Assembly (NCBI GenBank): GCA_041228285.1
Contig: CP166133.1
Span: 2,265,380 to 2,329,379, forward strand
Direction: 5' to 3'
From: Neisseriaceae bacterium CLB008
Lineage (GTDB): Bacteria > Pseudomonadota > Gammaproteobacteria > Burkholderiales > Neisseriaceae
DNA: 64,000 nucleotides
The position numbers and the translations under genes are program-made. Under the pieces are notes generated by a model. That model searched no databases. It saw nothing but the letters and a program-made list of their open reading frames with translations, and was not told where the DNA came from. This document shows, piece by piece, positions 35,061-38,729 of this stretch (the stretch's first letter is position 1; every line of letters begins with the position of its first letter).

Positions 35061-35442
35061 TTCACCTAATGGAGACGTGGTGAGTTGTCACACAAGGTAG
35101 CTAAAGGCAACTTTCAACCAATAGCAAAATAATCGAAGGAGTAGCGGTTGTTTTCATATTTTAGATACCTCCGCACAATGCCAACAAACCATCTTCTTCA
35201 GCTCATTTTACCCCCGCCACAGCGACCATTTTCAGCCACACGCAATCTTAAACACATATTATAAAGTCCTACGCCTTATCCCCATAGACTCAAGCGGACT
35301 TGCCGCATCCATACGACACTTAATCCATGCGCGCCACACATTCGCACCCTGATGGTTGACGCTCATCATTGAGGGGCGTATAAGTACTACCCACTAAGTC
35401 ATCATTACTTAATTATCATAAACAGAAAGCACGTGAATCACC

Positions 35443-35511
35443 ATGCCTGACCCCGCTTATGCCGGCGCGCCCACTGCGGCAGCCTCATTTCATTTAAAGA
35501 ACCCCGCTTAA
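35443..35511 (+). CDS. Candidate mgtA leader peptide 1
   Basis: A 22-codon frame beginning MPDPAYAGAP and ending NPA-stop, about 570 bases upstream of mgtA. The Met-Pro-Asp-Pro start recalls the EPDP of the E. coli MgtL leader peptide. The ribosome site is weak (GAAAG 12 bases upstream), so translation is uncertain. Read as part of the mgtA leader; chance is a real alternative. Confidence 0.3.
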   Translation: MPDPAYAGAPTAAASFHLKNPA

Positions 35512-35587: not shown

Positions 35588-35695
35588 ATGCAAAAACCAT
35601 TGATCTTCACTCCCTATTTTTTCGCTTCTCGGCGCTTGGCCTTAGCCTTTTTGCGCCCGTCGCTCACGCCCCCTTTAGAACCCCCTAGTCGCTGA
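35588..35695 (+). CDS. Candidate mgtA leader peptide 2
   Basis: A 35-codon frame (starts MQKPLIFTPYFF) whose last codons read TPPLEPPSR-stop, a run of proline pairs of the kind that slows ribosomes. It is followed by two strong hairpins (35707-35728 and 35764-35791). The ribosome site is poor (CAGAG), so confidence is low. If translated, stalling at the proline pairs would place a ribosome just before the first hairpin. Confidence 0.3.
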   Translation: MQKPLIFTPYFFASRRLALAFLRPSLTPPLEPPSR

Positions 35696-35791: not shown

Positions 35792-35829
35792 CGGCAACCG
35801 CTATCCCCACCCACAAAAAGGAAACCCTC

Positions 35830-35952
35830 ATGGACGACGACCCCAGGCCGCTCATCGCGCCCTTGCCGGCACAGCAAGCGGCGTCGAGCGCATTCAACCT
35901 AACCTGTGCCCCATTAATTTGCTTCGCATCCGCATCAACCGCTCGTAGCTGA
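35830..35952 (+). CDS. Probable mgtA leader peptide 3, acidic/proline start
   Basis: A 40-codon frame with a good ribosome site (AAAAAGGA, 7 bases before the ATG) that begins MDDDPRPLIAPLPAQQ. E. coli MgtL begins MEPDPTPLP; acidic-plus-proline starts are known to destabilise translating ribosomes when Mg2+ is low, which raises mgtA expression. The frame ends 59 bases before mgtA and its TGA lies inside a sequence complementary to the mgtA start region. I infer a Mg2+-sensing leader peptide; no homologue is known to me. Confidence 0.55.
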   Translation: MDDDPRPLIAPLPAQQAASSAFNLTCAPLICFASASTARS

Positions 35953-36012
35953 CGCCTAGTCCTTAGGCTCGCCCTGTCGCGCGTTGGTGTCTGCGACAAG
36001 GAGTAAGCGTCA
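35950..36012 (+). promoter_or_regulatory. Stem-loop enclosing the mgtA ribosome-binding site
   Basis: TGACGC (35950-35955, including the stop of the leader frame) pairs with GCGTCA (36007-36012, including the A of the mgtA ATG). Inside lie GCCTA/TAGGC (35954-35968) and TGTCGC/GCGACA (35975-35998), the latter touching the AAGGAG ribosome site at 35998-36003. A ribosome at the leader stop codon would open the outer stem, suggesting translational coupling. Confidence 0.5.
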
Positions 36013-38729
36013 TGACGCAATCCCAACACAACGCGGCTCACCCACACAACAAAGCCGCCCCCAAGCAAGACAAACTTTCCATGCTCGCGCTACAGGAAAC
36101 CCAACACAGCCTTGAGGCCTCTTTTCAACGCTTAGCCAGTAATCCTGACGGTTTAACTCAGGCTGAAGCGGCCGATCGCCTCCAAAAAAATGGCCCCAAT
36201 GAAGTGGCTCATGACAAACCGCCTTTTGTCCTGATTCAGCTGTTATTGGCGTTTAAAAACCCCTTTATCTTTGTGCTGTTGATCTTGGCCATCATCAGCG
36301 TGGTCACCGACTATTGGCTACCGCTACAGGAAGGTGAAGAAACCGACCTCACCGGCGCCTTAATCATTTTCACCATGGTGATCTTAAGCGGCCTGTTGCG
36401 GTTTTGGCAGGAATACCGCTCGGCCAAAACGGCTCAGTCGCTTAAATCCATGGTCAAAACCACGGCCACGGTACGCCGACGGCGTGATTCACGCTCTCCC
36501 TCAAAACTCATCGAAGTGGGCATGGCCGACCTAGTTAAAGGCGACATCGTCCATTTGTCTGCCGGTGACATGATTCCCGCCGACATCCGCCTCATCGATT
36601 CACGCGATCTGTACATTAGCCAAGCCGTCCTCACCGGCGAATCGCTGCCGGTGGAAAAGTACGACACATTAGGCGACGTGGCCGAAAAATCAGCCACCGC
36701 CTCTGGCGACCAGCACACAGGTCCGCTGGATCAGCCCAATATCTGCTTCATGGGCACCAACGTGGTCAGCGGCACCGCCACGGCCCTAGTCGTCGCCACC
36801 GGCGGGCAAACCTATTTCGGCTCTTTGGCTAAATCCATTACCGGCGGCCGCCCACAAACCTCTTTTGACAAGGGCGTGAACAGCGTCAGTTGGCTGTTGA
36901 TTCGATTCATGCTGGTGATGGTGCCCGTGGTCTTATTGATTAACGGCTTCACTAAAGGCGATTGGACCGAGGCATTTTTGTTTGCCCTAGCCGTAGCCGT
37001 TGGCCTCACGCCTGAAATGTTGCCCATGATCGTCAGCACCAATTTGGCTAAGGGCGCAATGGCCATGGCCAAAAACAAAGCCGTCGTCAAGCGCTTGAAT
37101 GCGATTCAAAACCTAGGCGCCATGGACGTGCTGTGCACCGACAAAACCGGCACCCTCACCCAAGACCAAATCATCTTGGCCCACCATCTCAACACCAGCG
37201 GCCATGCCGACCCACACATCCTCAGCTTAGCCTGGCTGAACAGCCATCACCAAAGCGGCATGCGCAACTTGATGGATAAGGCCGTCATTCAGTTCGCCGA
37301 TGCCGACCACAACTTAGTCAAGCCCCACGCCTATTTAAAAGTCGATGAGCTGCCGTTTGATTTTGTACGCCGGCGTCTGTCCATCATCGTGCAACAGCAA
37401 ACCAACGAACATCTGCTCATCTGTAAAGGGGCGGTAGAGGAAATGCTGCACATCAGCACCCACATTCGGCTCAATGGCCAAGTAGAGCCACTGAATGCCG
37501 GTAACAGCGCCACGCTGAACGCCCTGTCTCAGCAATATAATGAAGATGGGTTTCGGGTGTTGCTGATCGCCACCAAGCGCTTTGGCCCAGACGCACTCAA
37601 AGACAACTACCACACCAGCGATGAAAACGGCCTCGTCATCGAAGGCCTACTGACCTTTCTTGATCCGCCCAAAGAAACCGCTGGCCCGGCCTTAACTGCT
37701 TTAAGCGACATCGGCATTACGGTTAAAGTCCTCACCGGCGACAACGAAGTGATCAGCGCCAAAGTGTGCCAGCAGGTTGGCCTGATGCCGGGCACGCCGA
37801 TACTCGGCCATGAGATCGAGGCCATGGACGACGAAGCCCTACGACAAGTGGTAGAAGAACGCACCATTTTCGCCAAGCTCACGCCGCTGCAAAAATCACG
37901 GGTTTTAAAAGCCTTACAGCAAAATGGCCACACCGTCGGTTTCTTAGGCGACGGCATCAATGATGCTGCGGCCTTACGCGATGCCGACGTCGGCATTTCG
38001 GTCGACAGCGGCACCGACATCGCCAAAGAGTCAGCCGACATCATTCTGTTAGAAAAAAGCTTGATGGTGTTGGAAGAAGGCGTGCTCAAAGGCCGAGAAA
38101 CCTTTGGCAACATCATGAAATACCTCAACATGACGGCCAGCTCTAATTTTGGCAACGTGTTTTCCGTTTTGGTCGCCAGCGCCTTTATTCCTTTTCTCCC
38201 TATGTTGGCCATCCATTTATTGATTCAAAACCTGATGTATGACATTTCCCAGCTGGCATTGCCTTGGGATACGGTCGACGAAGAATATTTGAAAAAGCCC
38301 CGTAAATGGGACGCTCCCAATATTGGCCGCTTCATGCTGTGGATTGGGCCAACCTCATCAATCTTCGACATGACCACGTTTGCGCTGATGTGGTATGTAT
38401 TTGCCGCCAATGCGCCAGAATTCCAGTCCTTGTTCCAATCTGGCTGGTTTATTGAAGGGCTGCTGTCGCAAACCTTGGTCGTACACATGCTGCGTACCCG
38501 TAAAATCCCCTTCATTCAAAGCACGGCCACGCTGCCGGTCATGCTGATGAGTATCGTGGTGATGGGTCTGGGCATTTACATCCCCTTCTCGCCCCTAGGT
38601 GCGATGGTGGGGCTACAGCCGCTGCCTTGGTCTTACTTCCCTTGGCTCGTTCTCACCCTATTGAGCTATTGCCTCGTGGCACAGGGCATGAAAACGATTT
38701 ACCTGCGTCGCTTCAAAACCTGGTATTAA
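36012..38729 (+). CDS. mgtA: Magnesium-translocating P-type ATPase
   Basis: Inner-membrane P3B-type ATPase importing Mg2+ at the expense of ATP when external Mg2+ is scarce. The 905 residues match MgtA/MgtB. There is a cytoplasmic N-terminal part (ALQETQHSLEASFQRLASNPDGLTQAEAADRLQKNGPNEV), a first membrane pair, the actuator domain with VLTGESLPVEK, and the phosphorylation motif CTDKTGTLTQ with Asp377. GDGINDAAALRDADVGISVDSGTDIAKE and a C-terminal bundle of membrane helices follow. AAGGAG stands 8 bases before the ATG. It is monocistronic with a strong terminator and an unusually long leader containing short frames and hairpins. Confidence 0.96.
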   Translation: MTQSQHNAAHPHNKAAPKQDKLSMLALQETQHSLEASFQRLASNPDGLTQAEAADRLQKNGPNEVAHDKPPFVLIQLLLAFKNPFIFVLLILAIISVVTDYWLPLQEGEETDLTGALIIFTMVILSGLLRFWQEYRSAKTAQSLKSMVKTTATVRRRRDSRSPSKLIEVGMADLVKGDIVHLSAGDMIPADIRLIDSRDLYISQAVLTGESLPVEKYDTLGDVAEKSATASGDQHTGPLDQPNICFMGTNVVSGTATALVVATGGQTYFGSLAKSITGGRPQTSFDKGVNSVSWLLIRFMLVMVPVVLLINGFTKGDWTEAFLFALAVAVGLTPEMLPMIVSTNLAKGAMAMAKNKAVVKRLNAIQNLGAMDVLCTDKTGTLTQDQIILAHHLNTSGHADPHILSLAWLNSHHQSGMRNLMDKAVIQFADADHNLVKPHAYLKVDELPFDFVRRRLSIIVQQQTNEHLLICKGAVEEMLHISTHIRLNGQVEPLNAGNSATLNALSQQYNEDGFRVLLIATKRFGPDALKDNYHTSDENGLVIEGLLTFLDPPKETAGPALTALSDIGITVKVLTGDNEVISAKVCQQVGLMPGTPILGHEIEAMDDEALRQVVEERTIFAKLTPLQKSRVLKALQQNGHTVGFLGDGINDAAALRDADVGISVDSGTDIAKESADIILLEKSLMVLEEGVLKGRETFGNIMKYLNMTASSNFGNVFSVLVASAFIPFLPMLAIHLLIQNLMYDISQLALPWDTVDEEYLKKPRKWDAPNIGRFMLWIGPTSSIFDMTTFALMWYVFAANAPEFQSLFQSGWFIEGLLSQTLVVHMLRTRKIPFIQSTATLPVMLMSIVVMGLGIYIPFSPLGAMVGLQPLPWSYFPWLVLTLLSYCLVAQGMKTIYLRRFKTWY

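Follow-up and report, generated by a model that had tools for sequence, protein, structure and literature searches.

The question raised by this locus is whether a short reading frame just upstream of a Mg2+ pump gene encodes a regulatory leader peptide and, if so, how its translation would act on the pump. The window, meaning the whole stretch of 64,000 nucleotides that was analysed, belongs to a genome of 3.26 Mb in a single contig. The frame (uORF3) had been predicted as 40 codons with a strong ribosome site, ending 59 bases before mgtA, and these features were found to be correct; AAGGA is located 7 bases 5' of the ATG, and mgtA encodes a 905-residue ATPase (Table 1). The distance from the uORF3 start to mgtA is 182 nt, and the mgtA product scored 1651 bits against PRK15122 and 1373 bits against TIGR01524.

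Conservation was assessed in two Neisseriaceae MAGs. In L022, a sister species with an ATPase 93 % identical to that of the window, MDDDPRPLIAHLPAQ... is found 180 bases 5' of its own ATPase gene. Codons 1–10 of uORF3 differ between the two by two silent changes (GAC/GAT and AGG/AGA) and no replacement change, and AAGGA is retained despite altered surrounding bases and the loss of one base; the bases just 5' of this ribosome site are far less similar. After about codon 20 the tail has diverged in L022 through replacement changes, a gap of 3 bases and a frame change of 1 base; both frames nevertheless extend across arm 2 and end ahead of arm 3. This pattern of change indicates that the start, the ribosome site and the approximate end of uORF3 have been kept and the tail has not. 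The second genome, L021, has an ATPase identical to that of the window; the upstream kilobase shows just six base differences between the two, none of them in uORF3 and five within uORF2 (window 35605–35659), three silent and two replacement.

A chance frame without function, which the length of only 40 codons and the unconserved tail might suggest, is very hard to reconcile with the conservation of codons 1–10, together with the start and the ribosome site, within a leader that has diverged, or with the occurrence of similar frames before this gene in other classes, and is considered highly improbable. Retention of the start, AAGGA and MDDDPRPLIA in L022 confirms at sequence level that uORF3 is beyond chance. 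It agrees with the original prediction of a conserved leader peptide with an acidic, proline-containing start before a Mg2+ pump, and the loss of the frame or its first codons in relatives that would speak against this has not been seen so far.

Table 1. Pump gene and leader features in the window
Feature	Position	Strand	Description
Candidate sigma-70 promoter	35356–35384	+	TTGACG-17-TATAAG; conserved in L022 and six g6 Neisseriaceae
uORF1	35443–35511	+	22 aa, MPDPAYAGAPTAAASFHLKNPA (MPDPA...); start resembling MgtL
uORF2	35588–35695	+	35 aa, ending TPPLEPPSR
Ribosome-binding site of uORF3	35818–35822	+	AAGGA; kept in L022
uORF3	35830–35952	+	Candidate MgtQ-like leader peptide, MDDDPRPLIAPLP..., 40 aa (full peptide MDDDPRPLIAPLPAQQAASSAFNLTCAPLICFASASTARS); ATG 35830, TGA 35950–35952
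RNA arm 2	35925–35942	+	CGCATCCGCATCAACCGC; within the last uORF3 codons; if ribosome-free, paired to arm 3 in the minimum-energy folds of both window and L022
RNA arm 3	35972–35991	+	Pairs with arm 2 (35979–35991) or arm 4 (35972–35980)
RNA arm 4	35993–36003	+	Contains the mgtA ribosome-binding site AAGGAG (35998–36003)
mgtA/mgtB	36012–38729	+	Mg2+-importing P-type ATPase; 905 aa, full-length, intact; ATG 36012

The original prediction compared this peptide with MgtL, but the closest described type is mgtQ, upstream of Salmonella mgtB. In Salmonella, mgtQ has eight codons, among them Asp2 and Glu5, and lies in the gap between mgtC and mgtB; experiments have demonstrated that its acidic codons and alternative stems (1:2/3:4 versus 2:3) are needed for mgtB translation. 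Its authors also pointed to enterobacterial orthologues, whose length varies, and to a frame resembling mgtQ in Brucella (PMC8092293). Like mgtQ, uORF3 precedes an mgtB-type pump gene and has acidic codons near its start and a strong ribosome site, and the alternative stems predicted for its leader also bury or free the ribosome site of the pump. Among the features taken as diagnostic of the mgtQ type, uORF3 has its own strong site AAGGA and Asp2-Asp3-Asp4, all conserved in L022. Its place is also similar: the Salmonella gap is 219 nt long and mgtQ stands 51 nt into it, some 168 nt from mgtB, and the 182 nt of uORF3 fall inside the 120–230 nt used as the criterion of position. For the MgtQ peptide, the published text gives the positions Asp2, Pro4 and Glu5 (PMC8092293). 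The differences are that uORF3 has 40 codons instead of eight and that it is found in a promoter-proximal leader, whereas Salmonella mgtQ is located between mgtC and mgtB; the sole MgtC-family match in the genome is at 1371149, outside the window. Furthermore, uORF3 runs through arm 2, unlike mgtQ, and completion of the frame is therefore predicted to mean OFF.

MgtL of the E. coli and Salmonella mgtA leader (Chadani 2017, cited by PMC11282234) controls Rho-dependent transcription termination (PMC11282234). uORF3 shares with MgtL an acidic/proline nascent-chain start and a downstream Mg2+ pump, but the output predicted here is exposure or hiding of the ribosome site of the pump, not termination of the MgtL kind. 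Description of the peptide as unrelated, convergent and in a different class was also too strong, because leaders of this pump gene in alpha-, beta- and gammaproteobacteria have similar starts at a similar place. The long mgtP/mgtM leader of Salmonella mgtC likewise carries several short frames, and uORF2 ends TPPLEPPS; however, position and gene are different and the resemblance to uORF2 is in proline content only. A literature search, with most subscription journals outside it, found no such leader in Pseudomonas or Neisseriaceae; for P. aeruginosa mgtA, the sensor employed in a 2024 study was the mgtA leader of Salmonella (PMC11218974).

The possible output of the frame was examined by computed folding. 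A cruder accessibility test, in which a ribosome was masked and the whole leader plus 30 nt of coding sequence was folded, indicated no clear switch; it let upstream RNA and coding sequence interfere and was replaced by folding only the RNA 3' of the ribosome. In these folds, both the window and L022 formed a long hairpin of arm 2 with arm 3 when arm 2 was free, and AAGGAG was buried in both when only RNA 3' of the uORF3 stop was available. For the window, the cost of opening AAGGAG was 0.4–2.8 kcal/mol with free RNA from uORF nt 12–102 and 7.7–8.9 kcal/mol with free RNA only from nt 111–129, the stop being nt 120. Early drop-off thus corresponded to 1.8 kcal/mol and a finished frame to 8.9 kcal/mol, a difference of 7.1; the shuffle mean was −1.1 (sd 2.1), with a difference as large in 0/100 shuffles and in 0/300 of an earlier version, counts that are not strictly independent of the choice of test because the second folding test was chosen after the first. 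The values for L022 were 4.6 and 8.8 kcal/mol (difference 4.2), equalled in 1/100 and 1/300 shuffles. Folds and shuffles together predict alternative stems that bury or expose the ribosome site of the pump.

Comparable frames were found in other lineages. Short frames with acidic starts containing Pro, Ser or Arg precede the ATPase gene in Neisseriaceae, Burkholderiales, Pseudomonas, Phyllobacterium and Enterobacterales, at a distance similar to that of uORF3. They include MEEDSSRPFILL (20 aa, start MEEDSSRP) in six Neisseriaceae genomes of genus g6, MDDYPSRPAALL (45 aa, start MDDYPSRP) in Phyllobacterium, MDEPPSRPAACR (44 aa, start MDEPPSRP) in P. aeruginosa PA7, and frames of 43–46 aa starting MEEASSRFAA or MDEASSRFAA in many Pseudomonas. 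A further frame was MNSDDSSRLPLA (52 aa, start MNSDDSSR) in a Burkholderiales-like genome, and Enterobacterales-like genomes had MDEHPRWLGKPHPLE (15 aa) and MDDAPPPTRNEMLPME (16 aa), with an MDEHPRW start in one genus; the order names of these '-like' loci were inferred from group codes and kinship. One lineage encodes serine in the starts with TCG, where others use AGT, a difference in codon choice that indicates selection on the peptide. A recognizable acidic uORF was mostly absent before more distant ATPase relatives (<56 % identity), and no such frame precedes mgtA in Rahnella-type and some other relatives. Six Rahnella loci without a recognizable uORF (L036, L049, L050, L052, L075 and L097) have ACCGATCGC-like and GACAGGAG motifs before mgtA. 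Two Rhizobium species (L063 and L098) share a frame, MDTDIVWLVA..., that may start with TTG and span about 46 codons, located about 160 nt before mgtA.

Among frames recognized by pattern, a procedure that could miss unusual ones, acidic residues were present at positions 2–5 in 42/42 ATG frames of at least 18 codons. The predicted switch point tracked the stop codon across frames of 20 codons (g6), 40 (window), 43–46 (Pseudomonas and Phyllobacterium) and 52 (Burkholderiales-like), with the closing point of the ribosome site moving from nt 57–66 at 20 codons to nt 138–156 at 52. The switch difference was 5.3 kcal/mol in both the Burkholderiales-like leader (1/100 shuffles as large) and Phyllobacterium (0/100), 3.2–5.2 in Pseudomonas L043, L032, L034 and L069 (1–2/100) and 3.1 in g6 (3/100); P. 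aeruginosa PA7 had a small predicted switch of 1.1 kcal/mol (13/100). Ordinary coupling or reinitiation from the uORF, with no sensing by acidic codons, would suit the position of the pump start only 59 nt away and the fact that, in both sister species, the frame does not close before the end of arm 2. This explanation leaves the recurrence of acidic starts in all recognized long frames unaccounted for and is judged improbable.

The RNA structures were further analysed in an alignment of 28 long-frame leaders from Pseudomonas and Phyllobacterium. Three mutually exclusive helices were found, each supported by covariation: 1:2 (95.5 % of cells paired; both-sided changes in 3 pairs, 9 cells), 2:3 (83.1 %; 6 pairs, 22 cells) and 3:4 (83.6 %; 3 pairs, 9 cells), where both-sided counts refer to sequences rather than events and include several compensations from a single subclade (L069, L083 and L091). 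The observed paired cells, both-sided cells and covariation score were reached by no shuffle and by no slide of 1–3 columns. With the extra helix 1:2 of Pseudomonas, complete absence of a ribosome would be an intermediate state. A covariance model of the Pseudomonas leader, derived from this alignment, identified one site each in 13/59 Pseudomonas genomes, and all 12 sites fetched precede the ATPase gene; it also matches the site in the two Rhizobium loci (E about 0.001). The model, built without the window, had no match in the window leader, so window and Pseudomonas have an RNA architecture and a style of peptide in common but no recognizable RNA sequence, and RNA homology is not demonstrable. 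Direct sequence alignment of the window RNA with the Pseudomonas RNA failed, mixing up arms 1 and 2. The leader had no BLASTN match among plasmids.

Just 5' of the leader, 51 Pseudomonas, Phyllobacterium and Rahnella loci (e.g. L043:1368–1715, L086:1445–1714 and L036:1403–1684) encode a small conserved protein of about 90 aa (...WRVNPVNGRLEMRW...), which is absent from the window. It had no Pfam or NCBIfam match; the ORF had been suspected to be mgtC in Pseudomonas, which was rejected, the protein being unrelated.

The Pseudomonas lineage also contains natural variants of the frame. The P. fluorescens and P. fragi groups have 12-codon frames before the ATPase gene, with a switch difference of 0.3 kcal/mol (31–35/100 shuffles as large). 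The ATPase tree places a single shift from long frames to 12-codon ones at the root of the fluorescens/fragi clade and a single acidic loss (MDEASSSP to MNTSSSSP) inside this already-shortened clade. Shortening followed by acidic loss, although a single pair of events, fits the order expected if acidic codons have a role only in frames long enough to reach arm 2. The helix arms persist in one Pseudomonas clade with a short frame lacking acidic codons, and this persistence, together with the strong conserved helices, would suit a leader RNA that senses Mg2+ or another ligand directly, with the frame as a passenger or an aid to RNA melting. On this account the conservation of the frame start as peptide and the tracking of arm 2 by the frame end in four lineages would not be expected, and no Rfam family matched (none in the window at gathering score, and none in the leaders of eight relatives); direct RNA sensing is regarded as quite unlikely.

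The leader appears to be long and to contain further frames. The promoter candidate was missed by a pattern scan, since the scan demands T at the last −10 position, and boxes of the type TTGACG-17-TATAAA occur in L022 and in the six g6 genomes (TTGACG...CGTATAAA in g6). Conservation in two genera suggests that the window leader is probably about 620 nt. With the best promoter candidate so far about 470 bases 5' of uORF3, the predicted transcription start does not lie downstream of position 35952, the case that would have spoken against the original prediction. In L022, uORF1 is MPDPATGCSAPPIALLNLTHKP, with length and stop identical to those of the window, and uORF2 is a 35-aa frame ending TTPLEPPSC. 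These comparisons are no more than suggestive of uORF1 and uORF2 as leader frames.

As uORF1 (MPDPA) resembles MgtL more than uORF3 does, an MgtL-type attenuation was considered, in which translation of a leader frame, perhaps uORF1 and not uORF3, decides Rho termination before the pump. The leader of about 620 nt and an MPDP start about 50 nt 3' of the predicted transcription start, near the position of MgtL (nt 71–124 of a 264-nt leader; PMC6460261), are consistent with this. However, uORF1 has no strong ribosome site and that of uORF2 is weak, and the conserved structures around uORF3 are predicted to act on the ribosome site of the pump; attenuation of this type is considered unlikely.

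The preferred reading, given a probability of roughly 0.62, is that uORF3 acts as an MgtQ-like leader peptide through which translation of the downstream Mg2+ pump is controlled by a switch between early drop-off and completion. At sufficient Mg2+, ribosomes would complete uORF3 and cover arm 2, and the resulting 3:4 fold would bury the ribosome site of the pump and keep the pump off. At low Mg2+, ribosomes translating MDDDPRP would be destabilized and drop off early, arm 2 would pair with arm 3, and the exposed ribosome site would allow the pump to be made. The folding model indicates that failure of a ribosome to finish uORF3 probably turns the pump on, and loss of ribosomes over the acidic codons in low Mg2+ would be compatible with it. 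Translation of uORF3, its Mg2+ dependence, drop-off at the acidic codons and the direction of regulation are what we infer from these comparisons. The genome encodes an orthologue of EttA, which has been reported to act on acidic nascent chains (PMC11282234).

More tentatively, at somewhat less than even odds, these leaders may represent a widespread and largely undescribed class controlling mgtB-type pumps in alpha-, beta- and gammaproteobacteria, in which the stop codon would co-evolve with arm 2, finishing the frame would mean off and drop-off at the acidic start on, with stepwise dismantling in one Pseudomonas clade by frame shortening and later loss of acidic codons. If this is true, ribosome instability on acidic nascent chains would serve as a Mg2+ gauge well beyond Salmonella and E. 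coli, and the natural variants, of 12 to 52 codons and acidic or non-acidic, would separate the role of the acidic codons from that of the stop position.
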